A stretch of 64,000 bases of DNA from Ulota crispa (Eukaryota; Streptophyta; Bryopsida; Orthotrichales; Orthotrichaceae). The notes under the pieces were generated by a model. The model was not told the DNA's origin. It worked only from the letters and a program-made list of their open reading frames with translations, and ran no database searches. The translations under genes were made by a program, and so were the position numbers. Position 1 is the first letter of the stretch, and every line of letters begins with the position of its first letter. The DNA lies in contig OY987244.1 in assembly GCA_963920765.1 (NCBI GenBank), positions 15,130,501 through 15,194,500 on the forward strand, written 5' to 3'. Below, piece after piece: positions 11,986 to 53,151 of the stretch.

Positions 11986-12895
11986 TTAACCCTTTAAAGA
12001 CTACACACATTTTCCCAAAATCCACTAGAAACCAGGGCAATAAGGTTAAATGTGCATTTGAAACAAATATGGATCCAATTTGAATAATTCAACTATATAA
12101 ATGTGAAGTATATGTTGTTTGTTGCAATGCATCAAAATTTTAGCTAGATCTACCGTTGGAGGTGAAATATTATAACGATTGAATGAGCCATATATGGAAA
12201 ATCTATAGATTTTCATGCTTGTGTGGTTTTGAATGGTAGTGCTTCATGCAAGCTTTGATTGAGAAGAACCTTACATTTCTAAAAAGGAGGGTTTCCCACC
12301 TTTCCAACAAGACTAGTTTCACTCAAAATAACCAAAAATAGCAATCACAAGGTGTAGCTAAGTGGACTAAAAGGGTAAAAAATCCCATTTTCTTTGCTAC
12401 CCTAAAACGGTTCTACAAGAAATTTGATAATTGTTACAAAAAATCCAATTAGTGAAAGCAATCAAGAATTGGCCTTAAATGTAGGATGATTTTAAAAAAT
12501 AAATAAATGATAGAATCATTTCAATGGATTCTCAAATAGTACAATTGCACTACTACCATATAGAGAAACAATATAAGCGTATTTCTTGAGCAATTTGAAG
12601 TTTTTTAAAATTGCACAATTGAAGTGTGGCATTCTTCTTGGATGTTTGATGTATGATGTTGTTGCTTTGATCCATCTTTGACCAAATATGGATATGTATT
12701 TTGAGGCCATGCTATATAAACATCATTATTTATCACATGCTTGATTTCATTTTTTTTGATTTGGTTGGATGCAAAATTCTTGTGATCATAAGCGTCCTTC
12801 AAGATCATTTTCCAAATTGTTGAGCAATTTTATTGTATAGGCCAAAAACTACTCTCTCAAACCAAAATATGGTTTGGTGGTCTCTAAAGGGTTAA
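11986..12895. mobile_element. TTAA-flanked non-autonomous element, copy A
   Basis: Left end is TTAACCCTTTAAAGACTAC and right end on the minus strand TTAACCCTTTAGAGACCAC, 910 bp apart. TTAA at both outer ends is the presumed target duplication. The interior is AT-rich and non-coding. Same end type as the other TTAA elements; the interior is not clearly shared with another copy here. Confidence 0.7.
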
Positions 12896-12923
12896 TTGAA
12901 AAATCATAATTTCTTTGCCTCTA

Positions 12924-13236
12924 AGGTAGCAGCACCAATAATCGTCAAATTAAGGGTTATGAACATGATGATCATTAATAAATATCTAGCAAATTATAGG
13001 ATCCTATTAGCAATAGAAAAAGGATGAGTTTGCACTTTTGAATATATTATTTGGATCCTGTGAGAATAAGTTGTGAATTTTAAAAGAGCCGACTGCAATT
13101 GCACCTAATACCAACATTACAATTCATGTTCACATGTTGTACATCCTTGTAATTACATCTATTCATTTCCACAGATTTTCCAAGATTTTAGAGGTGATGG
13201 TTACGAGTACAGTGATGGTTATGGATGTTGCTACCT
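12924..13236. mobile_element. TA-flanked MITE, AGGTAGCAGC ends, older copy
   Basis: Matches the copy at 19821-20139 almost throughout (for example AAATTATAGGATCCTATTA and TGTGAGAATAAGTTGTG). Left end TA-AGGTAGCAGC is intact. The right end reads GTTGCTACCT followed by CA instead of TA, so one flank has decayed. Confidence 0.75.
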
Positions 13237-13276
13237 CAACAATTTCTATTTCTGTCTAGTGTCCACAACAATGAAA

Positions 13277-13435
13277 TGCATTATTCATTAAATTGGGAAA
13301 AAGTGACATGTTGGGACTTTTGGATTTTATGTTTTTCAAAGAGTATTCATTAAACACTTTTTAAAAAACATAAAATCCAAAAGTCCCAAAATGTCACTTT
13401 TTCCCGATTTAATGAATAACACATTGGTTCTAGTG
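13277..13435. repeat. near-perfect hairpin, ATTGGGAAAAA family
   Basis: Two arms of about 70 bp are inverted with very few mismatches around a loop of about 20 bp, with ends reading GTTATTCATTAAATTGGGAA. The same end motif recurs at 32755-33003, 43861-44110 and 56828-57078, where the interior is longer. Confidence 0.7.
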
Positions 13436-13524
13436 GATTAATTTACATTTACGTATGCACATGCTTATTATATCAGGAGTTAGCTTTAGCTATTTTTTTA
13501 GTGTTTATAATCATGCAAAATTGT

Positions 13525-14193
13525 TTGATCCCTAAATGCGTGCGGCACCAAATTTTGGTGTTTGCAATACTTTGAAGTTCAACAAACCTAACTAAGTTAC
13601 TATTTTTAGTAGTTTACATTTTGGATTTATGTTTTGTGAAGTCTAATTTTAGGATCAACAATCTGATTTTGAAAGTGATCAATTATGAGTTTTTCATTCA
13701 AGTTTTTGTGCAAGGGTCTTGACTTTCTCTAGTGTTGAGAGCTCTTGGAAATGAGCCTCAAAGTCAAATACACTAAATCTTGGGGAAAAATTTGCATAAA
13801 AAATTCATTTGAAAAACTATAGAAAAGATTTTGAAAAGCTATAATACAATTGGCGTTATTTATGTTATTTCCATAACCTTATATATTTTTGATGGTCGTT
13901 TTTTTAGATCCAACATGTGAAAAGATAATTCAAAGGCTTTGAAGACATTTTTGTAGTTTTAACACCCTCATGATCAAACATTAACACCCTCATGATCAAA
14001 CATTAAAATCTTTCAATCCATTAGTGATATTGTTGTGTTTTCTTTTCTTGTGTGACCTCTACCATATCTAGTTTGAATTTATACAGTTGCAATTCAAAAG
14101 AACTTCATACAGCTTATTAAAATGTTGCCTTTCTGTTCAATTTGAAGCAAATTCCTAAAAGTCCAAAGAAGGCCTCAAGCATTTAGGGGTTAA
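13525..14193. mobile_element. TTAA-flanked element, copy B (about 650-bp subfamily)
   Basis: Left end TTGATCCCTAAATGCG is a slightly decayed form of TTAACCCCTAAATGC. The right end on the minus strand is TTAACCCCTAAATGCTTGAG. The interior matches copies E, L and M, for example CAAGATTTTGTGCAAGGGTG-like and GAGCCTCAAATACACT-like runs. A 22-bp unit (ACACCCTCATGATCAAACATT) is tandemly duplicated near 13958-14001. Confidence 0.75.
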
Positions 14194-15106
14194 CCCCTTA
14201 GGGCCAAAGGAGGCAGAAACTGCCTTCTTAGGTTTTGAAATGAAATTTAGGGTGTGTTACCAATTTTGGATCATGGGTTGACCAATTACAAACATGTAAG
14301 GAATGAAGTCTATTTTCCCAAGTACTTGTTTGATTGAAGTTTGGAATTACATCTTGTTGTAGAGAGAGTGATTCATCAAAAGGGGTATCAGAAAATTTGA
14401 GCATTTAGTACAAATCACTCACTAAAACACCAACAAGAGGATGACGTCACCTAATGTCTTTAGGGACCAAGTAAATAGTGCCATGACAACAACCAATCCA
14501 ATTATTCTTTGGCTTTGTACCCCCTACTTGAGCATTTTAGTCCTTTTAGCATTGCACAATCAAAATTAATCACTTATATATTGTCACACTTCTTTTGAAA
14601 AAAGACATGGTCGTAGATCAATATTATTCAAACAACTTGTCCGGTTGGATTTCTAACCATGCAAATCTCATTTTGTAAAAATTATCAAAATTTCATGATC
14701 TTTTCCACAATTTTTGCACCATAACCACCCATGCCTTTCCTTCATCAAATACAACAAATGGTACGACTTTTTCCCAAAACCCTAAGTCCAAGCCCTTCAA
14801 CATATCACATGTAAGAAAAGTGCACAATTTCAAAATCCAATTCTATGGTAGTTGCTTGTAGGAGCCATTCATTCAACTTATACAATCCAAACTTAATCTA
14901 ATGCACCACCTTTCACTTAACCAATGCAGCACATATCATAAGCAAAAAGTCCAAAAAATTTATGTGCTTATCTTCCAAGATTGCGGTTTACATTGGTACG
15001 GCTAGATTGTGCTTTTCACACCTGAATTAATTGCTAAAAAGTCTGAAGCAAGTAGTTTTTCCAAAAGAATGACCAGCTTGGAAAGCAGGTGGCCCTAAAG
15101 GGTTAA
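14190..15106. mobile_element. TTAA-flanked element, copy C, bookended to copy B
   Basis: Starts TTAACCCCTTAGGGCC and ends GGCCCTAAAGGGTTAA. Its first TTAA is the last TTAA of copy B, as expected if C inserted into the TTAA at the end of B. The interior is non-coding. Confidence 0.75.
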
Positions 15107-15500
15107 GGGAATTAATATGTGCACACCTAGGGTTTGATATATGGACATCAGGGATTGAGGGGGTGTAAATTTTAGAAAACTTTTACTAAAAAAAGCTGAA
15201 TTTGGAAAATTTGAATTCAAATTGGATTTAGAGACCTCTGCTTAGTCTAGAACTGCAAAGAAAGTTACAATCAAACGACTTCAAGTGGAAAAGCCTAGCT
15301 CTTTTTATAAACAAGAGTAAAAGCAATAATTTTCTCCCTACATAAGCTTTTCCACCATAATTTGTTTAATTGTAACTTTCTTTGTGGTTCTAGAGTATAA
15401 TCAAGGTCTCTAAATCCAAATCCAAATTCAAATTTTCCAAATTCAACGTTTTGATGGAAATTTTCTAACTTACCCCCCACATGTGCATATATCAATTCCC
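15107..15500. mobile_element. long foldback element, copy 1
   Basis: Ends are GGGAATTAATATGTGCACAC and its inverse, with arms close to 180 bp, so nearly the whole element can fold on itself. It begins at the base after copy C. The interior matches the copies at 37006-37419 and 49689-50098. No clean target duplication here. Confidence 0.75.
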
Positions 15501-18405
15501 TTGTTTAAATATATTTTTACAATAAAGTTAGTATAAAACCTAATTTAGACCATGTTTTTTTCTTGGGCAATCATAGCTTACAAATTTTGAATGGATTGGT
15601 ATGATGCCTTGATGTTGGTGTAAATCTTGCCTTATTCATACAATGTCCAAAGAACATATATTATAGTGCATTAGAATCTTCTCAAAAGCAAAAAGAACTA
15701 GGCCCATACATTAAAACCATTATAATGGAAACCACTTAAACCAAATTGAAAACCATAGAAGTGGGTTCTTTGTTTTTCTCGCATTATAGAAGTCAAGGTC
15801 AATCCAAAACAATTCTAAATTTGATATTAATGTAAGCATCATCATACAAGTAGTTGAGTGCTCTTAAGTGACGTTGACACAACGTAAGCGTCTCATGCAC
15901 AAGGATTATGATGTTTAAGTCATTGGGCACTCATGCTTTATCCTTGTTCCTAGTGGCTTAAATGTCAAAATCTCCTTGTATGAGGTGCTTACTCTACACA
16001 AAAAAGAAAGAATAGTTATGTGATGGTTTCATGCATGCCAAAAAAAAAGTGGCTAGTGGAGAAAACATATTCTAAAATTCTAATTGTAGAAAGTTTATAA
16101 TACTATAACTTATCATAAATTGGCCAAAAATTAGATTTAGATGAGGTAAGCTTCTAATAATAAAAAAAAAATACAATGATAGTTGAAATTGTGTCCTTAA
16201 GATTTAAGTTTTAATCATTGGGTCAGACTAAGATTAGGTGTAATTCAAAATTTAAGTTTGAATGAATGCCATGTTTAACTAATTATAGCCCAAGTGCAAA
16301 AAATATGAATCATGTCACAAGGTCTAGATAAACTAGAGGTTTATGCTAATATGGTTTGTATAAAAGGCATCAAGAGATCCCTCAATAGTGGGTTTAGCTT
16401 GTGTATGGTAAGTTTAGTTTCGAAAAATATGTATGATTTCATGATCCCCACTCATCATGACTACGTACAATCTTAATTTGCATACATAATCTATAATTAG
16501 GTGAAGGTAACTAGTTGGAATAATATGCAAAACTTTGAGGTATATCCTAATATCCAAGAACTTGTATGGTCAAAGTATATGAATAGTTCAAAATTAGTTA
16601 AATACATCATATGAAGTCGCAAAAGTTGTAAAGACTCGAAGTTCAATTGGTAGATTTTATCTACCTATCATTTCAGATCTACCTATCATTTTAGAAAGTA
16701 CACTTTGAATTAGCTGACCCAACCTTAGTTTGAGTATTTTTATCACATCCTCGAAATTGATAATTGAGCTTATTCTATAAACACAATAATCCCGTTATTT
16801 AATTCATCAAAATTTGCAAACATTGTGAATTCCAGACTTTAATGCATGCCGCCTTTAGAAGAGGCTTCACAACAACAATGGAACAAAAGTAACATTTTAT
16901 AGCCCCAACCTTGGTGTTGCGAGTCATAGTAAAAGGAGTTCCACATGTCCTTGCTAAGCAGAATCACAGTTTAACTGTAACTAATTGACTCCAATAAATC
17001 CATAAGCATCTTTGTAGTATTGCTGTGTCTAAATTTCAACTACAACCCTTTTGAGTGCAAATACACGAAAATCTCAAACCGCCAATGGAAGATTCAAAGA
17101 TGCATTGCGAACACCAGTTCATCAAATAATCCAACAATAATGCACATATTTACAATTATTTACCCACAGCCGAGAAAATTAACGCCTCCAAAACCTCCTT
17201 AGACAGACACTTTGGGAGGTGCGCTGCAAGACATTCAACTCCAGCATCTTAGTCAACTCGCCTTATCAATAAGGACAACAAGGACTCATAATAGCGTCTC
17301 CAAGTCTCGTATTTAAGGTCCGTAACCCCTAAAAGGCAGAGACTTCATGGTTCTAAAACGACTAATTTGATTTAATCATGGTGTATTGTGAAAACCATTA
17401 TGCAGATGGAGATGAAATCTATTGCTTGTGTTGGACACAAAGTAAGTGAAATTGAACAAGAAGAAGTTCCATATGAGCCACCCCGAAGTGCTAAAAAAGT
17501 TGTGACGCACATTCAAGGAGGGATTGACTGGTGTTTTAGACAATTCTTTTATTTATTAGAGAGTTCTATATTTTTCCATTGATGTAATAGCTGCCTAAAT
17601 TCTGCAAAATAGGTGTTTGAGCAGCACGAACTTGAAGGCCCACTTGATGAACTCTAAGAGTTGGACTTACTTTGCTCACCACACCAACCAACCATCCACG
17701 TCATGTCCATGTGTTTGTACATCCAAATATCCGCATCCAACTCCAAAGCTCGTTGCCTTTCTGCAATAGCCAAAACCACATCTTTAGCAAATTTCAACCT
17801 GATTTTCCATGCTTCTTAAAGACACAAAATAGCAGCAGATTGGGAATGCTCGTTCAAAATACCAAGCCAACTAGCACTAGCATTCTAATATGCTAAAAAA
17901 TGGTAATGGTACACAATGTTTCACATCGAGGATAAAGAACATCGCAAAGAAAAGTAGTTACATAAACAATGAATGTATGAGACAGTATGTACTCACCTAA
18001 AAATAGGGTCGAAATACTAGGGAGGGCTGCCACACATTCCGTTGTCCACAGAGTATTAATTGAAAGATTGTAGCAGCAATTTTGACCGACTCAACTCCAT
18101 CTCATCACCTATCCATTGATGTTGAGCAGGTGAAGGCTTGCATTTAAGGTCATGAGCCTTTTTGATTGCGATAATTATTAATCTTAGTTAAGTTTTGATT
18201 ACGGAACATTGATGGCAAAATGGAAGGCCAAAGACAATTGTAGCAAAACAAGGAATCGAGTGATAAGATAACAAACTTGCTTCCATTAAATTGCCCTAGA
18301 CATCTTCTCCTCCCACTTCTTACATATAACCCCCAATGAGATTCATGCATCAAGTTAACACAATAATTCTTATCACCATGATGTATATGACACCTTCTAG
18401 CATTT
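15501..18405. other. AT-rich intergenic stretch
   Basis: I see no gene with coding character, no clear terminal repeats and no RNA gene I can support. The right part, next to 18406, is the 3' side of the F-box gene. Confidence 0.4.
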
Positions 18406-19737
18406 TCACGATACAACAAGGGCGGATTCACATACCGAAAATTCGTTCCCTCTTGGCACCTGTGGAAAGTCAAGGACTTTCCATTGATTTGTCGATAGAT
18501 CATAAAGCCATGCCAGCTTTTTTTCACACCAATCATTTGAGTCAAGCTCTCCGAGTACCACCAAAAACCCTTTGCATGCATACAGATTCAACTCAAAATG
18601 TGTCTTCGGAGGATGCTCAAAAGGATTGCACCTATGACTCTTGGCCTTCACCCATTTAGTTGATTCCCAACGGAACTCTTCAATGTAGAAAGTTGGCGAC
18701 TCGTTTACCAGTTCTTCATTAGCAGGGCCTTCTGATCCAATCTTCAGGACAAAAAGACTCTCCTTGTAACGAGCGGTCTTATAAAAATGAGGCAACAAGT
18801 CGTAATGGTCAATAGCAATCAATTTTCCACTTGCAAAATCATAGATCCAGTGTTTACGGAGAAATAACACACTAGTATTACAAGGCAAAGGTCTCCATTC
18901 TCCTGTCAAAGAGTCATAGAGTAGTATTGCAAGTTCACCCATTATCCACCCTCTACTTGCATTTGTCCACACACACCTTCTTGCCGCTATAAACACCTGG
19001 AATGCTCCGGTTCTCTTGTCCACACTAATCTGCAACAGCTGCATCTGCCTCAAATCAAACAATGGAGGCAACTCCTGCGATATCCACGTCAACGGGTTCT
19101 CGACATGAAAAAAAAAGACTGAGCGGTCTCTCTTCCTCTTCGAATGCATATTTAAGTGCGTGAAAAAGCACACCAAACCTCCATCTTCGCATTCAGGACT
19201 CATCTGTGCAAAGTCTACTTCCCAGTCCACAGGAGGACGGCCAGCCTCAATTTCGTACAAGTGTCACTTTGCAGTGTTGATATCATAGACCCTTGCCCTG
19301 AAAAAATTATGTCCGTAACTTGAAATGAGACACACCATATTCGGATACACTTCGTTGCACAGCCGGTGAAAATCCGAGTCAGCTGCAATGGTTCGTTGCC
19401 ATTCTTTATTCAAAAATTGCATACGGCAAATAGCATTCAATGGAAGGTGTCCAAACACCAGCTGCAAAAGCTCCCGAGGAAGACTTTCCCAGAGTTCAGG
19501 GTCCATCGGTTGCACATGGTCACTGCACGAGTGTTGACACCGTTTCTCCACTTGCTTTCTCCAACCTTGATCTTTGCTCCAAATCCCAAACTCTTCAGCT
19601 GCTAGTATCAATACCACAATCAATGCAGAAGCTCCATCTCTACTCAAAGCTCCTCTATTCTGTAACCTATCTTTTAATACAGAGGCTACCCGAGAATAGT
19701 GCTGCTTATCATCTCCACTCACATCTTCGTCCGCCAT
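18406..19737 (-). CDS. F-box protein, kelch/galactose-oxidase-like C-terminus, interrupted by one in-frame TGA
   Basis: One minus-strand frame runs from the ATG at 19735-19737 to the TGA at 18406-18408, 443 codons, broken only by a TGA at 19264-19266. F-box proteins join SCF ubiquitin ligases and pick substrates. The first 157 codons contain an F-box at about 80-120 (LWESLPRELLQLVFGHLPL, then CRMQFLNKEWQ). The second part, from LYEIEAGRPP, has kelch-like strands: LLYDSLTGEWRPLP, LPHFYKTARY, WLYDLSTNQWKVLDFP. Total length fits this family. No good splice sites flank the stop, so it is a nonsense mutation, a sequence error or readthrough (the context is TGA-C). The 5' half alone would give a bare F-box protein. 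A MITE lies about 85 bp upstream. Confidence 0.8.
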
Positions 19738-19820
19738 AGAAACACTGCAGTATAGTCGCTTTTAAGAAATATTCCCAAACGTAGGGTTCCCACAGATCAA
19801 GAGATTTCAAATGTCACATA

Positions 19821-21744: not shown

Positions 21745-22588
21745 TTAACCCCTAAACTACCAAGGCCATTTTCTGCCAAAACCACTCAAAATTGCCCCTA
21801 TTGTTGCGTTCATCAAAATGTTGTTCTTGAAAACCTAACCCTAGGATCTTATAATGCACTTGTAGAAGAAAAAGTGGTAAAAATTTCATGACAATTGATA
21901 CAATGGAAAAGTTTATTTTTTCCATTGTGCCCTAAAATTTTAGATGGCTTTAACTAACATTTGCTGATTTTTTTTGCACTATAGACCTTGAAGATGTAGA
22001 TTTTTCTTATAGGTAATCAAGTTAGACCTTTGTACACCAATTTTCAAGGCAATCAAATATACGGAACACATCCTAAAAAATATTGCAATGCCACTATATG
22101 ACAAGTATTGCAAATACACTATATTTTTGGGTGAAGTTTCCCACCACATGTTTTTAGATATGGAAAATCCAAACAATATATTTGAAAATGAACATGTACT
22201 TCAAATGTTAAAGAAAAAAAGTTAAAAAACTCTAAAACTCTAAAATTTAGAAGCTCCCAAAGCCCAATGTGACCTCCTAATTGGAAATGAAAGGGGAATA
22301 ATGGAGACCACTAGAGCAACATGTGGCAATCCCTCTTTGCTCCCCCCCCCTTCAAAGTTGATATTTTCTCCCTTGCCCAAGCTGCCCCTTGAATTGCTTT
22401 TAGCCAAAAAAAGCCCATAACTTGTAAACCGTGTGACATAATCACATGATTTTTTGCATCCCACAAACCTTATACATTCCTACACACTCATAAAAAGTTT
22501 CAAAAAATCATGTAAAAAATTGAGGTCACATGAGCCTATCCAAAATCCCAAAAGTCCCCCAAGGGGACTTTGGGGCTTTAGGGGTTAA
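21745..22588. mobile_element. TTAA-flanked element, copy D
   Basis: Starts TTAACCCCTAAACTACC; the right end on the minus strand is TTAACCCCTAAAGCCCC. 844 bp, non-coding. Its right TTAA is shared with copy E. Confidence 0.7.
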
Positions 22589-23219
22589 CCCCTCACCGCC
22601 CAAGGGGGCCAAAATTGTCCCCGCTTGTTTGTAATTTGGGATTTATAAATAGGATTAATTACAATGATTTTTTTTTTTAAGTTCTTGCTAAGGACTTGTT
22701 TTAGTATCAAAAGTCTAATTTTGAAAATGACTAATTATGATATTCAAGATTTTGTGAAAGGATGTCCATTGCAAATCTCCACTTTTTGGTGTTGAGGGCT
22801 CTTGGATATGAGCCTCAAGTACACTGGAACTTGGAGAAAATAATACATTAGAAATTGAGTTTAAAAAATTGTAGAATAGATTTTGAGAAGCTATAAATTG
22901 ATTGGGATTATGTATATTATACTTTACATACTCATGTTTTTTAGGTACCCTCAATTTTAGATTTGAGATGTGAAAAGAGGATTGAAAGACTTCAAATCAA
23001 TTTCACAATTTGAACACCCTCATGATCAAATCTTATAATCTTTCAATTCATAAGTAATGTTGTAACCTATTTTCCCATGTAATCCCTAACATGTCTAGCT
23101 TGAATTTGTATGGTTACATTTTAAAAAAACTGACAAAATTTATCAAATTATTGATATTTTGTTCACATTAGAGCAGATTCTGAGATGCTCAAGATCTGCC
23201 TTGGGCGGTGAGGAGTTAA
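22585..23219. mobile_element. TTAA-flanked element, copy E (about 650-bp subfamily), bookended to copy D
   Basis: Starts TTAACCCCTCACCGCCCAAG and its right end on the minus strand is TTAACTCCTCACCGCCCAAG, one mismatch in 20. The interior aligns by eye with copies B, L and M in the same orientation (AACACCCTCATGATCAAA; GAGGGCTCTTGG). The shared TTAA at 22585-22588 fits insertion into the end of copy D. Confidence 0.8.
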
Positions 23220-24493: not shown

Positions 24494-25420
24494 TTAACCC
24501 CTAAAGGACCATTGTCTGTTTGGGGACAAATGGGATTTTGGGCATGTACCTATGGCTAAACTACTTAGTGTGATTTTTTGAAACTTTTATTGAAGGTGAA
24601 GAACTCAAAGATCTATTTGGGAATGTAATTTTTTCTTTATTCTGACATTTGACAAAGAAGTTGTGCATGAAAATCTGGAAAATGCTGCTCCCCGGGCAGC
24701 CAAAAACTTCTTTAAATTTTTTATTTTTTTCAAATAAAAATCTGAAATAGGTTCTTTAGACTTATATTGACGTGGGGAGCTTTGAATCATTCAATTTTGA
24801 TAGATGAGATGAAAGTTATGAGGAGTTTTTGTTTACGAGTAGTTCTAGATTCTCTACTCTAAAATAAACTTTGAAGTCCTTTATTTTACTCAATTTTCAT
24901 TATTTTGGAAAAAAAACAAGACCTAAGAATGTAGATTGTTTACCACAACATTAAAATTGTTGGGATTTGCATTTTTCATCTTAATAATTAAATTCTTAAC
25001 AATTTAGTGTTTTGGCTCATTCTCTACTTCATTTTACTTACTATTTTTTCCCATATGTTGTATAGTTCCAATTGATATGAAAACTCTCCCACACATATCT
25101 AACTTGGTCTCCTACATGGGAAAAATAAGCCTCAACTTTGCGTGGAGTATTTTTTTGCTCTAAGAGTGGTCAAAGCCATCTGAAATTTTTAGGCAGCAGC
25201 AACAAAAAAAAAAATCTGCAATTCAGATGTAAATATCTCACTCATTTTTGTGTAGATTGAGCTAAATTTCTTACCACGTGTACCTCTTGTAGTCTATTGT
25301 CAGAGCTTATGGTTGAATTTTTGTAAAAAACTTTTTTCCTTACCATTGTACTTGCTACCCCAAAAGTGGCAGTTTTTTGTGTTTTTTGCAGAAAAAACGA
25401 CTTGGTCCTTTAGGGGTTAA
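24494..25420. mobile_element. TTAA-flanked element, copy F (about 928-bp subfamily)
   Basis: Starts TTAACCCCTAAAGGACCA and the right end on the minus strand is TTAACCCCTAAAGGACCAAG: 18 matching bases. Internally it matches copies G and J around GGGACAAATGGGATTTTGGGC. Its only open frames are short. Confidence 0.8.
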
Positions 25421-27226: not shown

Positions 27227-28154
27227 TTAATCCCTAAATTTTTGAGTGTTCTTTTGGGGGACAAATGAGATTTTGGGCAAGTGCCTACAGCTTCAATTTT
27301 TGTCTTGATTTTTTGAAACTTTTTCTGAAGATAGGAAAACACATTAGCTTTTGGAGAATATAATTTTTATTCCAATCCATGCCCAAAAGCAAAAGTTATG
27401 CCTAGATAAGCAAAAATTTATGGAGATCGGGCAGCAAAAAAAAATTACAAAACTTCTTTTTTTTTTCAAATTTTTTTCTTCTCATAGGTTATAGTTTTGT
27501 AAACATCTGAAGCTTTGATTCATTCCATTTGGACTAGTTTTGAAAAAGTTATGGACAATCTTGTTTTTTGGGCAATTCAAGCATCTTCTTGAAAAAGTAA
27601 CTTATAAACTTCATTTTTGAATGCAAGTTTAACATTTTTTCAAAAAAAAATGTTGAAAAGGGTGAAGTTTGCTGTGTAGAAAAATCTCATTGTTGGGATT
27701 ATTGTGTTTCAATTCCATTGCAAGGTTATTAACAATTTGAGTTTTTGTTCAATCTCAGACCTTCATCCACCTAATGATTTTTTTAAGAATGAGATTTAGG
27801 TATTTTTGGTTTTCATTTTTTTTTGAAGATTCTTAACTCAATTTCCCACCATAAAAATATAAACCTCAAATCTCTGTAGTGCAAAAAATTTAAGTTAAAA
27901 AGCTCAAAGTCAAATAATCTAGTCATGCAAGGTGCAAAGAAGCTTGTTTTTTACAATTCAATTGCAAATATCTTGCAATTTGTGCGGTCAAAGTTTATGG
28001 ATTTTTGTGTGCACATTCTTATACAAGTCTAGTACAAGATCCTACGGTTGGATATACAAAAAGACCAATTTTCAAACATTTGTACTCATTGCAATAGAAA
28101 TGACAGTTTTGGGTGTCTTTTGACAAATAAAGGCCCCAGGAATTTAGGGGTTAA
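27227..28154. mobile_element. TTAA-flanked element, copy G (about 928-bp subfamily)
   Basis: Starts TTAATCCCTAAATTTTTGAG and ends GAATTTAGGGGTTAA. Long runs of its interior are identical to copy J (37467-38397) in opposite orientation, for example ATCTCAGACCTTCATCCACC, so the two copies arose recently. No coding capacity. It ends 60 bp before the PB1 gene model. Confidence 0.85.
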
Positions 28155-34459: not shown

Positions 34460-34658
34460 GATAATGTCACAAAAAGTACAAATGTGATATTATAGAGGTC
34501 AAGATGTGATATTACAAAGGTCACTATGAACGTATCTACAATATCACACAAAGTGAAGATGTGGTATTAAAGAGGTTATGCTATGATACTATTGTGATAT
34601 TAAGGAGGTTATGCTATGATACTATTGTGATATTAACGAGGCTAGGTTGTGATATTAA
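34460..34658. repeat. degenerate tandem array of GTGATATTA units
   Basis: GTGATATTA or close variants recur at 16-38 bp spacing. The last part is a clean 33-35-bp repeat (GAGGTTATGCTATGATACTA). Copy H of the TTAA family begins in the TTAA of its final unit. Confidence 0.6.
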
Positions 34659-34995
34659 CCCTTAAAGGACGGGGCGACTATTATACATACTATGTACGGT
34701 GCTGTATAATTGGCATTTGCTACCAATAATTTTGTTTAAATTTAGGATCTTGACTACCTCACTAGAATGGCATTGATCTATATTCTAACTTCTTTGTTGA
34801 TCTCAAATGTAATAGAGGTGTGGATGCACTTCAAATACAAGAAATATACTTTATATTGTATCTGTCACAAAGGGCTGCCTTGTCCTTTAGGGATTCAAGA
34901 GAATAGTGTCTCTACAAAGGATACTACTCAAATCTCAATGACCACTGTAGCATCACAGCCTATTCTCTTTAAGGCCTCAAGGCTTTAGGGGTTAA
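34655..34995. mobile_element. TTAA-flanked element, copy H
   Basis: Starts TTAACCCTTAAAGGACG and ends GGCTTTAGGGGTTAA. 341 bp. Inner ends match less well than in other copies. Confidence 0.6.
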
Positions 34996-35526: not shown

Positions 35527-35885
35527 AGCACTAAGGAACTTGGGATGTAATGTGAAACACCATGTCTCAACTTTCGGCTTTACCCCAATCAAATTCTCGG
35601 ATGTTATTCTCAGATTTTAACCCCTGAACGGCCCATCGGCCATCTCTGGCCGTATGTACGATCATATATACAATTGTATTTGAGATGCTCTGAGGGTTAT
35701 CCAAAAAAATTATGCACCCACCATCATACAACCCTTCAATGCGTATGGTTGTAACACTTAATTTCCAACTAATTCAAACTTCTAAATATTAATTGCGACC
35801 GTATTTGGTACCGTATCTCTAAAGCCGAAGGGCCCTTCAGGGGTTAATGACCCTTGGGACGTGGGACATAGGATAAACCGCCCCT
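35527..35885. repeat. decayed AGGGGCGGTT MITE interrupted by copy I
   Basis: Right end GATAAACCGCCCCT matches the MITE at 21133-21450. Its body (CTTGGGATGTAATGTGAAAC; TTGGGACGTGGGACATAGG) aligns with 48126-48240. It is split by the TTAA element at 35617-35847. Related sequence further left (35045-35160) aligns with 47990-48110. Confidence 0.55.
35617..35847. mobile_element. TTAA-flanked element, copy I (short subfamily), nested in another MITE
   Basis: Starts TTAACCCCTGAACGGCCC and its right end on the minus strand is TTAACCCCTGAAGGGCCC. 231 bp. The interior matches copy K (TGCTCTGAGGGTT; GTATTTGGTACCGTA). The uninterrupted host sequence near 48199-48213 allows the insertion point to be seen. 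Confidence 0.8.
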
Positions 35886-37003: not shown

Positions 37004-37005
37004 TA

Positions 37006-37419
37006 GGGGATTGATATGTCTACCACACCCTTTCAGCTATTCTACCACACCTCAAGATAAATTTTAGATTTCTACCATCAAATAGCTGAATTTGAGAATT
37101 TGAAATTCAGATTTGGATTTAGAGACCTTGATTTTGTTTAGAACCATAAAAAAACAAAGTTGTAATTGAACAACACCCAATGAAGAAGCTTAACTCAAGG
37201 GAAAAGTATTACTTTTACTTGTTTTTATAAAAAAAGATAAGCTTTTTCATTGAGTGTTGTTCAATTAGAACCTTTTTATGATTCTAGACAAAATCATGGT
37301 CTCAAAGTCCAAATATGAATTCCAAATTCTCAAATTCAACTATTTGATGGTAGAAATCTAAAATTTACCCTGGGGTGTGATAGAATAGCTCAAAGGGTGT
37401 GGTAGACATATCTATCTCC
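37006..37419. mobile_element. long foldback element, copy 2
   Basis: Left end GGGGATTGATATGTCTACC, right end on the minus strand GGAGATAGATATGTCTACC, with arms of about 180 bp inverted throughout. No clear target duplication. Same family as 15107-15500 and 49689-50098. Confidence 0.8.
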
Positions 37420-37466
37420 TTTCACATATTGAATAGTTGCAAAATAAAACTTGGTAGAAGTTAGCA

Positions 37467-38397
37467 TTAACCCCTAAATCCCTGGGGCCTTTATTTTGTC
37501 AAAAGACACCCAAAACTGCCATTTCTATTGCAAAGAATTAAAAAGTTTGAAAATGAGTCTTTTTGTATATCTAACCGTAGGATCTTGTACTAGACTTGTA
37601 TTAGAATGTGCACACAAAAATCCATAAACTTTGACCGCACAAATTGCAAGATATTTGCAATTTAATTGTAAAATACAAGCTTTTTTGCACCTTGCATGAC
37701 TAGATTATTTGACTTTGAGCTTTTTTAACTTAAATTTTTTGCACTGTAGAGTTTTTAGGTTTATTTTTTTATGGTGGGAAATTGAGTTAAGAATCTTCAA
37801 AAAAGAAAAAAAACCAAAAATACCTAAATCTCATTCTTAAAAAAATCATTAGGTGGATGAAGGTCTGAGATTGAACAAAAACTCAAATTGTTAATAACCT
37901 TGCAATGGAATTGAAACACAATAATCCAAACAATGAGATTTTTCTACACAGCAAACTTCACCCTTTTCAACATTTTTTTTTGAAAAAATGTTAAACTTGC
38001 ATTCAAAAATGAAGTTTATAAGTTACTTTTTCAAGAAGATGCTTGAATTGCCCAAAAAAACAAGATTGTCCATAACTTTTTCAAAACTAGTCCAAATGGA
38101 ATGAATCAAAGCTTCAAATGTTTACAAAACTATAACCTATGAGAAGAAAAAAATTTGAAAAAAAAAGAAGTTTTTGTAATTTGTTTTTGCTGCCCGATCT
38201 CCATAAATTTTTGCTTATCTAGGCATAACTTTTGCTTTTGGGCATGGATTGGAATAAAAATTATATTCTCCAAAAGCTAATGTGTTTTCCTACCTTCAAA
38301 AAAAATTTCAAAAAATCAAAACAAAAATTGAGGTTTTAGGTATTTGCCCAAAATCTCATTTGTCCCCCGAGAGGACACTCAGGAATTGAGGGGTTAA
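37467..38397. mobile_element. TTAA-flanked element, copy J (about 928-bp subfamily), inverted relative to copy G
   Basis: Starts TTAACCCCTAAATCCCTGG; the right end on the minus strand is TTAACCCCTCAATTCCTGAG. Nearly identical to copy G in opposite orientation over long internal runs, so one of the younger copies here. No coding capacity. Confidence 0.85.
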
Positions 38398-38505: not shown

Positions 38506-38509
38506 GGTG

Positions 38510-40140: not shown

Positions 40141-40345
40141 TTAACCCCTCAACATCACGAAAGCCCTTTATACGTATTTGAGCTGCTCTGAGGGTTTTCC
40201 AATTTTTTTTATGCACGCATCATTGTACAACCCTTCAATATGTATGATTGTAACACTTAATTTCCAATTTCCAACTGATATTGATTGTAACTGTATTTGG
40301 TACCGTAGCTCCAGAGCCCAAGAGCAAAGGCCCTTCAGAGGTTAA
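40141..40345. mobile_element. TTAA-flanked element, copy K (short subfamily)
   Basis: Starts TTAACCCCTCAACATC and ends GGCCCTTCAGAGGTTAA. 205 bp. The interior matches copy I (CAACCCTTCAATATGTATG; GTATTTGGTACCGTA). It lies downstream of the RIN4-like gene. Confidence 0.7.
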
Positions 40346-44520: not shown

Positions 44521-44579
44521 GTTGTTCCCAATTTTCCAAAAAAACAATTTACTTAGTCTTCATTTTCCAAACTAGCAAT

Positions 44580-44689: not shown

Positions 44690-45925
44690 AGTTTTTGCTT
44701 GTGTGGTCTTAATATTAGACCAAGTGCTAGTTCCTTGGCACCATCCTTTCACTAGCATTGTGAGAGGCATTGTTGGAGTTATGCATCTTGCAATGAGCAA
44801 ATGTAAACCCTAAACCTTGTTGTTTTATAGGTCCATCAATAGTAAGGGCAACTTTACCCTACAAGAGAAGGTAATTTTTGAATCCATTTATGTGTGAATT
44901 TGTCTCTCATTAGTTAAGTTTTTGAAAACTACCATAAATCTTTACATATAACCAAATTTTCAAAAGATGTCTTTAAACCCAAATGAACAGATCTAACACA
45001 AGCCCATTTTCAAAAAGTGAGCTCACCAATCTTGAATAAAAGGCCAATTCATGATTCTAGAGTGATTCTCTTGTTTCATTGTTAAGCATAAAGTAACATT
45101 CTTAATTGGTCAACATTGGAGGATGAAAAAGAAATCTCAATTGCTCTACTTGGCCTACTTCATTCATCATTCTTTCCTAAAAAGTTCAAAGTCTTGCACT
45201 AATGGCCTTCAAAATTGACTTATAGGATTTTGAGCATGTGACTTTTATGAAAGTCAACACCCATAGTGAGCACATTGATGTTCAATATTTTAGATAAAAA
45301 AAACACAATAGTTGGATAGACAATAAGAGATTGGAAGTACATCATTTGAAAAATGTACCAAATTAATGTTTGGCAAAAATTAAACAAGTCATATAATGTG
45401 ACTTGTTTGACACCAATTTTCAAAAATAAACGTAGTTTCATCACAATTTTAAAGCACTTTCCTTGACAATAAGACCTTACCCTTGATCTTTATGTCACTT
45501 GGATTGCATGAAAATCATATACTTACCTTGAGGTGTAGTTTAGCAATTCCCAGCTTGTAAATGGTGTTGAGACTGGGCTACTCTTTCACCATGCATGCTT
45601 TCAAAGATTTGTGTTGAACATTTGATGTTGACATTGTTCTTGTAGTAATGAGTGGACGTGTCAAGGTCACAAATTCAACTATACCGTATCTTTTGCTTGC
45701 AAAGAGAGCCATTTGTGATCATGAACTGCAAAAACTTGTTTTCCACTACAGTACATGGCCCCACAGATTTTTTATTATGTTGCAGGATTTCTTCCTCCAA
45801 AGCAGCAAATTCATGGCGTGGGGCTTTCAGGGGAGGATCACATTCCAAGACGGTTCACACTAATTCCAACGTCCCATCCCAACAAAAGATGTCAACTTCC
45901 TGGGTATAAAATGGAACAAATAGTA
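44690..45925. other. intergenic stretch
   Basis: Overlapping short open frames near 45648-45973 have no recognisable domain. Nothing else supported. Confidence 0.35.
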
Positions 45926-46568
45926 TTAACCCCAAAAGGACCCCGAGGACAAAATGTGTCCTTTCAAAATTAAATAAAAATTTATCAAACTATTATTTTT
46001 AGTAGTTTATTTTTTTGAATTTTTTTTTAAAGTTTAGTTTTAGCTCCAACAATCCGATTTTGCAAATTATTGATTATGTTTTTTCTGTTCAAGATTTTGT
46101 GCACGGGTGTCCATTGCAATCTTGACTTTATGTAATGTTGAGGGCTCTTGGGAATGAGCCTCAAATACACTATATCTTTGAGAAAAAATGACATTAGAAA
46201 TTCATTTAAAAAATTTGTAGAGTAGATTTTGAGAAGTCATAAATTGATTGGGGTTATGCATGTTAGGCCCTTTAACCTCATATTTTTTTGATGACCAACT
46301 TTTTAGATTTGACATGTGAAAAGAAGGTTGAAAGACTTCAAATCACTTTCACAATTTTAACACCCTCATAATCAAACATTCTAATCTTTCAATCCATAAG
46401 AGATATTGTTGTGTTTTCTTTTCTAATGTGATCTCTAACATGTCTAGTTTGATTTTATACGGTTACAATTCAAAAAAATTGATATAACTTATCAAATTAT
46501 TGACTTTTTGTTCAAATTAGAGCAAATTCCTAGAAGCTCAAGAATTTCCAGGGACGTTCTGGGGTTAT
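45926..46568. mobile_element. TTAA-flanked element, copy L (about 650-bp subfamily)
   Basis: Starts TTAACCCCAAAAGGACCCCG. The right end on the minus strand is ATAACCCCAGAACGTCCC, so the right TTAA has become TTAT. The interior matches copies B, E and M. Confidence 0.75.
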
Positions 46569-47990
46569 GTAATTCATACAAAATCTCTCAAGTAAAATAA
46601 CCCAAGAAATTTCTAAGTGGGGGTTCTTTCGGGGAAGGTCAAAGTCGTATAATGTTTTACAACTACGGTCACTTGTGAGGGGATTGTTTTGGTAACATTA
46701 GGAACAAGAGATTAAGAAACTCATCAACACCCAAATCAATTAGACATGTAGATTCTTATTCTATAAACACTCTCACTAAATAGGTCAATTGGACTAAATT
46801 TCCAATCTAAGTTATAATAAATTACAAAAGCAATAAGAGTAGCACTTATCAAATGCAATACTCCCAACAATCTTGTCCTCTTTCCTTCCTACTCCAGTCT
46901 TAGTCCTTTGTCACTTGTTTTATGTTTCCTTTATTATAATCATCACATGCATTAGTACAATCTACAATAACTATAAATCTCATAGAACATAGAAAGACCT
47001 ACATTTAATTATACTTAGAAGTAATTTTAGACTTACATTTAATTATACTTAGAAGTAATTTTATTCTAAGGGTGATCAATCCTATAAAAGAATTTTCACA
47101 CTTCTTTCTAACTAAGGAATTTCTTTGTCTATACTTCTAGGTCAATCTAGACCTTAACTTTCACTTATCCAAACTCAATAATGGATAGCACTAAATTAAT
47201 CTTCATAGTCTAGTTGACTATGTTTACTTTCAATCACATTCAATTCTCTTAAGTTGTTTTTACAAATTACAAACTTATACTACAATCATCATTCAACCAC
47301 TATTCTACATTCTTTTTATTTAATTTTATCATGTTCAGATTTTCATATCTTTACTATAGATGTCTTGTCGATTAGACTTTAATGCGGTTCTTTTTTATTC
47401 ATGTCTACAGTCTATTTGACAATGCTTCTATTTCACTATTCTTGGATTGATTTAAAGAATTACCAACATCATCAAAATCAGATTTTTAGTTTCAATCATA
47501 ATTATTATAATCCATTTCATTTTATTATGCTTCAAAAAAGATTTCTATTCTTGTCTTTATACTTATTTGTTTGATCAAATAGACATTTCAGAAAGTTGAA
47601 TTCAATACATAAACAATCAATTCAATACTTCAATTCATACATACAAAGAACAACCAAATTAATATCTTTCACTTTCATTCAAAGTTTGCAATTTACTAAA
47701 CAAGGTTTGAGAATTTCTAACTATGACATACACTCCTAATAGTGTAGACCATTTGACATTGTTCCTTCCTTATTTATATACCTTATGTCTTTTCTTCTAA
47801 AGGCACAACTTTTTATATCTAAGTCAATTAGACCATTTTAAGTTTGATCTAAGTTATGATGATCTTCTTCATATCTTTTCAATTTTCATTAGCAAAACAA
47901 AATGCATTCATACTAGGAAATGTTTTTAAAACAAAAAACTGTTTTTTTCACACTACAGGTTAACAAAAGCTTTGAATATAATATGCAAAA
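46569..47990. other. AT-rich intergenic stretch with a 34-bp tandem duplication
   Basis: At 46997-47063 the run ACATTTAATTATACTTAGAA and its continuation occur twice at 34-bp spacing. No gene seen. Confidence 0.4.
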
Positions 47991-47994
47991 ATGT

Positions 47995-48577
47995 TGGTGG
48001 GCTAGGACTTGTGCTCAAAGTTGGGTTTAGCAAAATGGTTGACCCAAACCATGAGTGGAGTCCCATCTTCCTTGGCCCAAAAACTTTTAAGAAATGTTGT
48101 TATAGAGATAATATGCAATGAACAAGGACACGGGACTTGGGACGCAATATGAAATGCTAACTAGCAACTTTTGACTCTCAATTAATCAAATTTTGAGATT
48201 TCATTGGGACGTGGAACATGAGACATAGTGTGAACCGCCCAAGGTCCTTGGTTTGAATGGTTGAGAGGTTGAAAATTGAGACGCTATTTCATAAAATCCC
48301 ATGCCCTAACACCCGAATCCCAATCATAAACTTTGACATGGCAAACTATTTTTCCAAAACTTGGCGCTATGAAATGGGACTTTATTCTAAGAGTTGAGTT
48401 ATGCCAATACAGGAACCCAACATGGGAGCCAATTCTAAAACTTCTTCGCTATACTGTAATAGATTCAAACGTTCTTTTTAATTTATGTTTTTATCATTTC
48501 CCAAATGATGTGGAAGTAAAAATGGGACATGTAATGTTGGGGTGTAGGATATTCAGCGAACCGCCCCTCATTTGCTG
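47995..48577. repeat. decayed AGGGGCGGTT-family MITEs
   Basis: Two degenerate units: about 47995-48240, ending GTGAACCGCCC and aligning with 35045-35160 plus 35527-35885, and about 48320-48577, ending GCGAACCGCCCCT and aligning with the right half of 21133-21450 (ACTTGGCGCTATGAAATGGG-type run). Confidence 0.5.
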
Positions 48578-49548
48578 CTGCGCTTTACAACTCAAAATTC
48601 TAAAAAGCTCAAGATTTTTTAGTCCATTGCAAAAAGCCATTTGCAATTCGTATTCCACATAGGATTCCAATTCGATTTCCACGTGATATTCCGATTTGAT
48701 TTCCAGTTATTTCAATTAGATTTTTGGTTGGGTCGACCCAACTGACCTTCCGGAATCTAACGGCCCAATGGGATCCATTTCCTCCCTTTATTCAAAGATG
48801 CCATTGGACGTACTCAATGTCTTTATGAAAATATCATTCCAGTTTCAGGACTGTTATCACCGCCCATACGGAACAATAAACAAAATATTTACTACTGTTT
48901 CTTCAGTACAAAGTACAGATAAATATAAAACCCTTTCCCCAAACAATTAAAAAACAAACGAACTCTTCAGTACGTATCTCTACAGACAACTTTTAAAATT
49001 CCCTAAGTTTTTGTGTCTTTTTAAAATAAAATAAATAATTCTTCATATCGTGCACGATGTATAAAACATAATATAATAAATATGAACGCATTTTTTATTG
49101 ACTTTTTTGTTTTATTGATACAGGGCTGCTGTTTTTTCAGAATATAGATGCACAATTGATTTTTTTTTAAATGTGCTTTTGGAAGTATTCTGCTATCCAA
49201 TTCCATGCACTTTAAACTAATCATTGAAACATTCTGTTTAAATGTTCATTATACTCTAAATTTAACATTTTATTAATTTGGTTGGTTTTAACCTTAAAAC
49301 ACATAGAACGATGGAAAAATAGAAAATGTAATGGTGAAACCGTCATTATGCTTTCTTAACTTTTAGATTGAGTTTTAAACCTTGAGATTTTGTGAGCGTC
49401 TTTTATTCATTCCTATGAAAATAACTAGAAAAGTGTAGTTTTCCTATCAGAATTCGCTCATAAAATAACGATTCTGATATTTAAAATTTGGAGATGAAAT
49501 CACAAATTATTATGCATTACAAAGCTCTTTATGATCCCGTTTCAATTT
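48578..49548. other. AT-rich intergenic stretch
   Basis: Nothing recognised. Confidence 0.35.
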
Positions 49549-50609
49549 TTTTCCCCAAGTGCCCAAGGCACCACATTGTGGTCTTGACAATTCTATAAAA
49601 CCCAACTAAACTTCTATTGTTAGTCTATTTTATTTATTAAATATTCTTCCTGAATTCTAGTTTTAGCATCAAAAAACCTATTTTGTAAGGGAATTGATAT
49701 GCGTACCACACCTTCTTAACTATCCTAGCACACCCCAGGATAAATTTTAGATTTGTACCATCAAAAAGCTGAATTTGAGAACTTGGAATTTAGATTTGGA
49801 CTCAGAGACCTGGATTTCATTTAGAACCATAAAAATTTGTTGTAATTGAACAACACCCAATGAAAAAGCTTAGCCCGGGGGAAAAGTATAACTTTTACTT
49901 TTGTTTATAAAAAAGGTAAGCATTTTCATTGGGTGTTGTTCAAGTATTACTTTTTTGTGATTCTAGACAAAATCACGGTTTCTGAGTTCAAATCTAAATT
50001 CCAAATTCTCAAATTCAACTTTTTGATGGTAGAAATCTAAAATTTACCCTGGGGTGTGGTGGGATAGTCAAGAAGGTGTGGTACACATATCAATTCCCAT
50101 TTTGTAAATGATTGATGTGACTTTTCTATTCAAGATTTTGTGCAAGGGTGTCCATTGCAATCTTGGCTTTTTTAGTGTTCAAAGCTCTTGGAAATGAGCC
50201 TCAAATTCACTAGACCTTGGAGATAAATTTACATGAGAAATTCACTTAAAAAAATTGTAAAGGAGGTTTTGAAAAGCTGTAAGTTGATTGGATTTATGTA
50301 TGTTATGTCCTTTGACCCCGTATTTTTCATGTGGTCATTTTCTTAAATTTGACACGTGAAAAGATGATTGAAAGACTTCAAGTCATATTCACAATTTTGA
50401 CACCCTCTTGATCAAACATTATAATTTTTCAATCCATAAATGAAATTGTTGTGTTTTCTTTTCCTATGTGACCTCTAATATATGCAGTTTGAACTTGTAT
50501 GGTTATAATTAAGAAAAAGACCAATATAATTTATCAAAATTTTAACTTTTTGTTCAACTTAAATCAAATTCCTAGAAGTTCAAAAGTGCCTTGGGCATTT
50601 AGGGGTTAA
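49549..50609. mobile_element. TTAA-flanked element, copy M (about 650-bp subfamily), split by a foldback element
   Basis: The left end is decayed (TTCCCCAAGTGCCCAAGGC). The right end on the minus strand is TTAACCCCTAAATGCCCAAG. Without the 410-bp insert and one 9-bp duplicate it is about 640 bp, and its interior follows copies B, E and L. Confidence 0.75.
49689..50098. mobile_element. long foldback element, copy 3, with 9-bp target duplication
   Basis: Ends GGGAATTGATATGCGTACC and its inverse, with arms of about 180 bp around a short centre. It is flanked on both sides by ATTTTGTAA (49680-49688 and 50099-50107), a perfect 9-bp duplication, the length typical of Mutator-type insertion. It interrupts copy M of the TTAA family. 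Confidence 0.9.
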
Positions 50610-50752
50610 AAGAGCATAAAGGTTTTTTGGTTTATGTACACACCTTTCATCATACCAATCATTTTAATGAAGTCTGTTTGTAAATAGTTATTTCCAAAAG
50701 TTACATTAAAAAAAACATTTTATTGTGCGCTATATATATTTGATGATTTTGG

Positions 50753-50754
<2 letters not shown>

Positions 50755-50829
<75 letters not shown>
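50755..50829. repeat. (AT)n microsatellite
   Basis: About 36 uninterrupted AT units. Confidence 0.95.
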
Positions 50830-50832
<3 letters not shown>

Positions 50833-52457
50833 ATTTAGCACTAAATTTGATAGGTTTTTTAGCCATTGACAACAAAACTCTTTCTATTTAGATACTTAGC
50901 ATTTTCAATTTAATCAAACGTGTACAAAAGCAATATCTATGTAGAAAATTTTAGGCCTAAATTTGACATTTTTTTTTCTGAAACTCGAATGAAAAAAACC
51001 TATATGAAAGCTTGCTTTATCGTTTGAAATTGAAACCAAGAAAGAAGCTTGTAAAAATTATCCAATAAATATCGTTTATTTATGGTTTTATACAATCAAA
51101 CGGTAAGAAATGGTCATACTGTACATAAACCGATTTTTGGCCAATTTATTTCATGAAAGTTAATTTATTGCTCTTTAATTGTATAATTGTATCACCACAA
51201 AGTAAACTTTCCCCTCATTGCCAAAATGTAGTTGATTTGGCCCCTTTATCTGCTTGAAATTCACATTAAGATGGAGGTGACCCGTACTGATAATAATGTG
51301 AACTTTAGATTACTCAATCAATAACTAGTACACTTTTGAACAATTAACTAACGTTTCTCAAATAATCACAGTTTAAGATTCTTATAACAAGGCAATCATG
51401 AAATTTGAAATGTGATTGAGCACAACTTAAATTTAAGATATGGCTTGACACAACATATTACATTGAGTTGATAGTCTTTTCCAATTTGCACATTTATAAA
51501 TAAACTAGTTCCTAAAGGTTTTTGAAGTTTGAAAGTCCGTCTTTTTTTAAATGACGTAAGGAAACGTCAAACGTAATGACGTGTGAGTAATATATGCTAA
51601 TTTGAAATTTTCATCATAATATAAGCTTATGTATGATTGATTACACCGTAGCTATTATCAATAATGATTGTCTTAACCTTGATACCAAATATTAATTAGA
51701 ATTCCCTATAAATTTGTTGAAACAAAAACAGCTATGCTAAATTTGAAATATCTGGAATAGATCGGAAATGTAACAATAGTATTGCAATGGTTTTATATAG
51801 TTTTAGTTATTAAGATCTATGATTATTGGTATTTTGAATCTTAATTCAAATTATCAGTCAATTCAATCAAATTTCTATAAGAATCTATTTTCATAATTCT
51901 AGTAAAGCATGTCTTTTAGCAAATTCAGATTCAATTACTGTACAAAAGCATATCTGTTTTAGCAATTTTGGAGAAAATTATTGCATTGAAAATATGATTA
52001 TGGTTGTAGGGAGTAGAAGTTTGAAGTCATCCAACATCTGAAAGGAATTGGTTGTTATTGCCGCAAAGGATTTGGTTATTATTGACACAAAGGAGTTGGC
52101 TTTTGCTGAATTAAAAATTTATCCACAGGCATTTCATCATGTGCAAGAAAGCTTCAAGCCTTGTTTAAATTTTGTGGAACTAAGTCAACATTGTTAGTAA
52201 CTTCTGGTTGATTGTATCTTTGAGTGCATAGTTTGCCATGCTTGCGCAGTTTGTTATTATAATTTTCAGTTTGTTACCAATCGGAGATTTTTCATAGTGC
52301 AAAAGCAAAAAGTAAACCTTTACATATATCAACAATGTGCTATTTGTAAAAGTAAAAGTAGTATTTGTTGATATTGTTGACTTTGTTCGTCCTTGCTTAT
52401 ATGAGGGGTAAAGAAAGATTGAAGGTGAGTTAAAATATTCTTTGGCCACTTGATCGT
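50830..52457. other. AT-rich intergenic stretch
   Basis: Nothing recognised. Confidence 0.35.
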
Positions 52458-52777
52458 TTAGAGCATCTCCACCGGTGGCTCTGGCTCGTTCAAAGTGGAT
52501 GAAAAGTAGCTAGGTCCCTCTCAGGCCTCTCTCAAACTCTCTTATTTGGCTAGTCTAGCAAGTCACTCTCCAAATCACTATTCATGTACTATTCATCTTA
52601 CGTTTAGTGAGCTTTATTCTCTACTTCCCTAAATAAGTGGTCAACTACTTATTTCTGGGGTGTGTTTGAGTGCAAAGCCACCTTTTCAAAGAGCATGGGT
52701 GGAGATTGAGAGCCTTCATGCCTCGTCAAACCTAATGGAAAAATTTGAGCGAGTTTGGACCGGTGAAGATGCTCTTA
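52458..52777. mobile_element. TTA-flanked MITE, GAGCATCTCCAC ends, copy 1
   Basis: Ends GAGCATCTCCACCGG and CCGGTGAAGATGCTC, flanked by TTA on both sides, a PIF/Harbinger-type 3-bp duplication. Such GAGCATCTCCA ends are widespread in plant genomes. A TTAA-family element begins in its right TTA. Confidence 0.7.
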
Positions 52778-53151
52778 CCCCTTAAAGGAGGGATGGGTCA
52801 CCGTGGCTTGCTTTGCTTGTAGCAGTCTATAGTGTTTTTGGACATGGGCACCACTAGTATTACCTCAAAAAGTTGGAAAAGTTGATAATGCAAGCTGATC
52901 ACATGAGATCCCATGAAAATTGCAATAAGGGCAACTTGGGACCTAACATAGTGATTTTGAATTTTCTCACAACTTGAGGCATCTAAAAATATGAGTGTAT
53001 TTGATGATGTTTTTTTTGCCTTCCATGATGCACTACGTGTTTATGATCACTTTTGAAGAAAAATCAGACAAAAAACAGTTTTTCTGTGGGCTGCATGATC
53101 TTTTTTCGGAGCCACAGGACGATTTTTGCCCTCCTGACGTTTAGAGGTTAA
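52775..53151. mobile_element. TTAA-flanked element, copy N
   Basis: Starts TTACCCCTTAAAGGAGGG and its right end on the minus strand is TTAACCTCTAAACGTCAGGA. 377 bp. The left TTAA is altered, and it overlaps the TTA of the MITE before it. Confidence 0.55.

Follow-up and report, generated by a model that had tools for sequence, protein, structure and literature searches.

TTAA-flanked non-autonomous elements in the moss Ulota crispa and their relationship to piggyBac transposons

Fourteen copies in the window and their families

We analysed a stretch of 64,000 nucleotides (the window; C3:15130501-15194500) of the genome of the moss Ulota crispa, which comprises 274.8 Mb in 157 contigs. By inspection, the proteins encoded in the window are plant-like, and the plastid genes psaB and psaA on contig C157 have their best scores with the photosystem I structures 7ksq, 6l35 and 8htu, from Physcomitrium, in line with a moss host. 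Between window positions 11986 and 53151 lie 14 copies of repeats with TTAACCCC-type ends. These are almost certainly non-autonomous transposons of the piggyBac superfamily, that is, deletion derivatives resembling miniature inverted-repeat transposable elements (MITEs), in the nuclear genome of a land plant. piggyBac is a cut-and-paste transposon, a workhorse of animal genetics, and has mostly been described from animals, fungi and protists. An earlier note on this DNA had counted 14 copies ending in TTAA and CCC; we confirmed this count, with small corrections to copies H, L, M and N. The copies are listed below by window position, with the match of their terminal inverted repeats (TIRs) given out of 14 bases where read.

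Copy A, 11986-12895: 910-bp non-autonomous element of a CCCTTTA-ended family; TIR 12/14; 88% over 918 bp to a copy in locus L043
Copy B, 13525-14193: member of the 650-bp family with a mutated left end (TTGATCCC); 67-74% to E, L, M and w7
Copy C, 14190-15106: 917 bp, TTAA common with B; TIR 12/14
Copy D, 21745-22588: 844 bp; TIR 11/14; ends similar to F, J and w6
Copy E, 22585-23219: 635 bp, 650-bp family, TTAA common with D; TIR 13/14; 78% to L over 538 bp
Copy F, 24494-25420: 927 bp, derived by internal deletion from the full-length piggyBac elements E51, E46 and E41; TIR 14/14
Copy G, 27227-28154: 928 bp; 95% to J over 932 bp; resembles E51 in its end sequence
Copy H, 34655-34897: re-delimited, 243 bp; positions 1-241 are 81% to a copy in E41
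Copy I, 35617-35847: 231 bp; TIR 13/14; 86% to w5 over 232 bp
Copy J, 37467-38397: 931 bp, inverted relative to G; TIR 12/14; 95% to G
Copy K, 40141-40345: 205 bp, I family; 78% to I over 179 bp
Copy L, 45926-46568: member of the 650-bp family, about 643 bp long, flanked on the right by TTAT; 78-80% to E and M; right boundary placed by reading the sequence
Copy M, 49547-50609: 650-bp family, split by an insert at 49689-50098, left end approximate; matches to L on both sides of the insert
Copy N, 52776-53151: about 376 bp, left end degenerate; 80% to L047 6291-6632 over 355 bp

The copies occupy 9,202 of the 64,000 bases (14.4%), with H taken to 34995 and the left end of M approximate. By reading, 19 of the 28 copy ends start with an exact TTAACCC (20 if H is ended as in the earlier layout) and the remainder are variants. 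Exact TTAACCCCTAAA ends number nine in the window, compared with about 28 ends in the 14 copies, and one of the nine is an orphan at 34995. We re-read H as 34655-34897 because the copy in the joined locus E41 matches it over 1-241 only, and the end at 34995 is therefore left without a partner; it resembles the 650-bp family over 25 bp (match to B). On its right side, at about 46568, copy L has TTAT instead of TTAA, and the left end of copy M was not found in the end searches of the window. Neighbouring copies have a TTAA in common twice, B and C at 14190-14193 and D and E at 22585-22588. None of the piggyBac transposase matches listed genome-wide (at least 120, described below) falls inside the window.

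We grouped the window copies and further ones (w1-w7, x41, x43) by BLASTN. The 650-bp group comprises B, E, L, M and w7, and the I group comprises I, K and w5 (205-232 bp); the F group consists of F, w1, w2 and w6, and G and J, 95% identical, form another. Further groups unite w3, w4 and x41, on the one hand, and A and x43, on the other. The earlier division into at least three subfamilies thus holds for the 650-bp copies (B, E, L, M) and for I and K; F, G and J do not make up one family. F and the G/J group have similar ends, and we place F outside that group because only about 120 bp of end sequence is common to them, as against the 95% identity of G and J.

The insert in M (49689-50098) is an unrelated inverted-repeat element. 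It belongs to a second repeat family, also present at 37005-37420, whose inverted arms measure about 148 bp. The one at 49689 begins GGGAATTGATATG and is surrounded by a 9-bp duplication, ATTTTGTAA, which suggests a Mutator-like MITE; no clear target duplication was found for the copy at 37005. Sequence similar to this family also occurs in L042 and L051.

Ends and target sites across the genome

The 12-mer TTAACCCCTAAA occurs 30,972 times in the whole genome (15,477 forward and 15,495 reverse), while the reversed-pattern control occurs 77 times (41 + 36). A chance, telomere-like origin of CCCCTAAA was considered and is ruled out by this control. We opened eight loci, the first eight listed on contig C1 (L001-L008), and in all of them an inverted partner lay 232-1452 bp from the exact end; the paired ends match at 12-13 of 14 bases in seven loci and at 9 of 14 in L008. 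Extrapolation from the ratio of exact ends in the window gives about 50,000 copies, a figure that falls to about 15,500 if each copy has two exact ends.

Since the end searches required TTAA or a near match, the frequency of TTAA in the resulting lists is no independent evidence of the target, and a pattern without a fixed outer base was used. Across the whole genome, the base preceding TAACCCCTAAA is T in 30,972 of 32,582 cases (95%); the control for the non-T pattern gave 77 + 72 occurrences. A search with the joined flanks of 25 elements at opened loci gave no non-self match across the joint, and filled and empty sites were therefore compared through elements that had inserted into copies of a known MITE family. 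The w3-type MITE contains a conserved TTAA, which is unfilled in w3, in w4 and in a copy in L049 (x41 has GTAA there), and it is filled in 26 copies according to a junction pattern with at most one mismatch (14 exact; control 0). In four of the filled loci opened (L056, L057, L058, L061), the host is followed by TTAA, an element of 161, 654, 942 or 958 bp and a further TTAA, after which the host resumes; the element of L061 begins TCCC, not CCCC. In a fifth locus, L059, TTAA stands on both sides of a w3-type copy of 953 bp (positions 557-1509). Clean TTAA on both sides is thus seen in five of the six filled loci opened, while the unfilled host copies carry a single TTAA, which is the outcome of the comparison of filled and empty sites that the earlier note had recommended. 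The elements of these five loci range from 161 to 958 bp, and one and the same TTAA has received elements that differ in length and family. A second TTAA site, inside the I family, is filled in nine cases (control 0; one junction side read).

Transposases, full-length elements and an upstream domain

A search with the profile of the piggyBac DDE transposase domain (PF13843, DDE_Tnp_1_7), in which 116 of 528 candidates were scored so that 120 is a lower bound, gave at least 120 matches in the genome, on contigs C1-C11, all of them over the cut-off and the best at E 1.3e-73. The same profile matched none of 14 control genomes. We scanned nine frames from L042, L045, L041, L048, L043 and L047 against Pfam: seven match DDE_Tnp_1_7 alone, two (the upstream frames of L042 and L043) match nothing, and no other transposase class was found among them. 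A PDB search with three transposase frames returned only piggyBac (6x67/6x68) and piggyBat (9c0f), with E from 4e-20 to 1e-11.

The following counts refer to the best 30 of the at least 120 matches. At the three aligned positions, 27, 22 and 26 of them have the catalytic aspartate, and all three aspartates, the DDD triad that the earlier note had proposed to look for, are intact in 20. Stop codons interrupt 29 of the 30 matched stretches, and 40 of the 57 stops at positions with a majority residue replace W, R or Q. These stops, together with D-to-N changes, would fit decay through methylated cytosines. Most of the piggyBac enzyme gene copies examined are broken. Median pairwise identity is 35%, with 14 groups at 60% and four at 40%, indicating that several divergent transposase lineages coexist. 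L045 retains the three aspartates and its frame ends ahead of a Cys-rich segment; a C-terminal Cys-rich segment was read in L042 and L041.

Several transposases lie within elements whose two ends could be read. At L042, identical 14-bp TIRs (14/14) surround the transposase in an element of 5746 bp, and w7, a member of the 650-bp family, matches its ends over 20-33 bp. L039 and L043 are elements of 5.0-5.1 kb with TIRs of 12/14, and L040 has a pair of ends at 11/14. Three more loci, L051, L046 and L041, were picked because their C-side end looked F-like, and their N side was fetched, yielding the joined elements E51, E46 and E41. In E51 (8,829 bp), the F-type left end extends over 181 bp at 87% and the right end over 363 bp at 74%, corresponding to F 1-180 (87%) and F 574-927 (74%); in E46 (8,530 bp), the values are 176 bp at 78% and 368 bp at 71%, and in E41 (8,033 bp), 52 bp at 85% and 59 bp at 83%. 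The C-side end of L051 aligns with the MITE w6 over about 144 bp with a score of 94, the maximum in 400 shuffled comparisons being 25. At least E51 and E41 contain nested insertions, among them x41 inside E41. Hence F-type left and right ends flank the transposase in all three extended loci, and we conclude that the F-type MITEs are internally deleted piggyBac elements. Long end sequence ties only the F/w1/w6 group to a transposase element, and G/J more weakly; for the other groups, the link consists of TTAA and a short stretch of end sequence.

Near the C-side end of the piggyBac element of L041, a long simple-repeat array (YIHT repeated in translation) extends over positions 4524-5345.

A subset of the transposase loci carries an additional conserved segment. 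It is present in the frames that precede the transposase in L043 (at 1622-1996) and L045, and it recurs in L039, L044, L040 and L052; of the four transposase groups at 40% identity, a single one contains those of all six loci. This upstream domain has 91 matches genome-wide. Thirty-six of them precede a listed transposase match by 1.4-4.5 kb on its own strand, where 0.14 is expected by chance; within 7 kb of a listed transposase match, none of the 91 is found downstream of it or on the other strand. The other 55 have none of the at least 120 listed transposase matches nearby; they may be deleted elements or, as the transposase list is a lower bound, neighbours of transposases outside it. The domain has no match in Pfam up to E 10, and its best PDB match (E 0.39) is taken as chance. 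It was not found in L042, L041, L046 or L051, including their N-side stretches L053-L055, at E 1e-4, nor did the genome-wide search place it there. The domain could represent either an exon at the N-terminus or a gene in its own right. PIF/Harbinger elements have a two-gene layout, which the second reading would parallel. A tentative and rather improbable extension is that mosses host an old and diverse piggyBac radiation that makes up a major part of the genome, and that one of its clades acquired an upstream second protein or a new N-terminal domain (about 75-125 amino acids) needed for transposition.

Assignment to piggyBac and its alternatives

The piggyBac interpretation of the earlier note is supported by the ends, by TTAA at filled and empty sites, by the F-ended elements that enclose the transposase domain and by the aligned catalytic aspartates, all of them observed directly; the repeats are real and their reading as piggyBac is upheld. 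The features of the superfamily recur here: a DDE_Tnp_1_7 domain in full-length relatives (L042, E51, E46, E41) with a DDD triad, short TIRs starting CC(C) (CCCCTAAA-type ends, 14/14 in F and L042) and a TTAA duplicated on insertion, for which a TA duplication within TTAA also fits by sequence. The proposed mechanism is that a piggyBac DDD transposase from the full-length relatives would bind the CCCCTAAA-type ends, excise the copies and insert them at TTAA, so that each copy would be flanked by TTAA, and that excision would restore a TTAA. These transposases probably moved the copies, including those of groups linked by short ends only. Their activity is likely past or low, because 29 of the 30 best transposase matches contain stops.

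Some observations weigh against this reading. Neither a whole transposase gene nor an active copy was demonstrated among the copies examined; ten of the 120 listed matches are without a stop, several of these being partial, and the open frame of L048 has N at the third catalytic position. Twelve transposase loci were scanned, with a pair of ends in four (L039, L040, L042, L043) and, after extension, in three more; at five of the twelve (L044, L045, L048, L050, L052), no end pair was found in the stretches scanned. With the transposase elements found, the 650-bp and I/K groups have no more than short end sequence in common, and the short ends of L042 also match w2 and w4 over 30 bp, that is, more than one MITE group, so that its link to the 650-bp family holds at TIR level only. 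At one of the six filled loci opened, L060, the left junction was not found. Moreover, filled and empty sites by themselves would look the same after duplication of a 4-bp TTAA or of a 2-bp TA.

This last ambiguity leaves room for Tc1/mariner or PIF/Harbinger MITEs with a TA or TTA duplication and a strong preference for TTAA, given that a TA duplicated within TTAA by an element starting ACCCC produces the same filled and empty pattern. We regard this as very improbable: the outer T is kept in 95% of exact ends, which together with the transposase class argues for a TTAA duplication over TA, and flanks reading TTA and TAA would not result from a TTA duplication. The F-type ends are, besides, common to the piggyBac-encoding elements, which already refutes the idea for the F group. 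TTAA is also the target of Kolobok and Sola3, so that the target site by itself would suit another TTAA-inserting superfamily just as well. That the copies belong to one of these is equally hard to credit. We judged it from the frames of the transposase loci and, for the F group and L042, from the enclosed transposase, with no genome search by a Kolobok or Sola model; it is disfavoured for the F group. The nine frames match DDE_Tnp_1_7 (seven) or nothing (two), and the PDB matches of three frames are confined to piggyBac and piggyBat. Where a transposase of Kolobok or Sola3 would be expected, in the three full-length F-ended elements and in L042, we found the piggyBac domain. The earlier note had also envisaged a full-length relative encoding another transposase class; the three F-ended relatives enclose the piggyBac domain instead. 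Finally, the piggyBac elements and the MITEs could be unrelated, the F-type ends beside transposases being chance MITE insertions. MITEs are indeed dense (about 14% of the window), and x41 is nested in E41. This is the least likely explanation of all, since the transposase of all three loci has the left MITE part on its N side and the right one on its C side, each ending at TTAA, no complete F-type MITE is listed there, and L042, with its 14/14 TIRs, is an independent case.

Assigned to piggyBac, the moss elements resemble piggyBac of Trichoplusia ni (6x67/6x68) and piggyBat (9c0f) in transposase sequence and aligned DDD triad, in the TTAA target, in short ends starting CCC and in the C-terminal Cys-rich segment read in L042 and L041. 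They differ in the extra upstream domain of six loci and in length: L039, L042 and L043 measure 5.0-5.7 kb, and the elements with nested insertions 8.0-8.8 kb, whereas T. ni piggyBac has 2472 bp with 14-bp TIRs (PMC10140906).

The earlier statement that piggyBac is not established in land plants stands in part. The word piggyBac is absent from the text of a 2022 review that counts six TIR superfamilies in land plants (PMC9033089) and from a paper on Physcomitrium transposable elements (PMC7466625). By contrast, excerpts of one review place piggyBac among seven MITE superfamilies of angiosperms (PMC10004981) and those of another among plant superfamilies (PMC10794571); excerpted repeat tables list 1230 PiggyBac entries (122,417 bp) for the C-fern genome (PMC6890710) and a single piggyBac for feather grass (PMC8319324), and piggyBac-like elements are mentioned in passing as occurring in plants (passages of PMC10140906 and PMC8086355). 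What the C-fern, feather grass and two review listings have in common with our elements is the superfamily name; the passages concerned describe neither a transposase nor empty sites nor autonomous partners. A paper on the genome of the moss Niphotrichum was rejected as a piggyBac report, its text containing 'piggybacking'. No description of a moss piggyBac with its transposase was found in searches of open-licence papers, which is weak evidence of absence. New here is a land plant that carries piggyBac ends in the tens of thousands, along with diverse transposases and an upstream domain without a Pfam match. The superfamily itself is known; its host is unusual, its scale large and its one extra domain unexplained. 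It has thus thrived in at least one lineage of plants, whose genome it has shaped (about 31,000 exact piggyBac-type ends, diverse transposases). TTAA followed by CCCCTAAA provides an annotation rule for a group of MITEs that plant classifications may leave unnamed, and the upstream domain is a testable addition to piggyBac biology.

Elsewhere in the window, at 56572-57230, two nested pairs of inverted repeats have arms that are 99% (370 bp between them) and 91% (507 bp between them) complementary. In the genome at large, 46 of 48 psaA/psaB matches lie off the plastid contig C157, on C1-C10, some of them without stops, and represent nuclear copies of plastid DNA.

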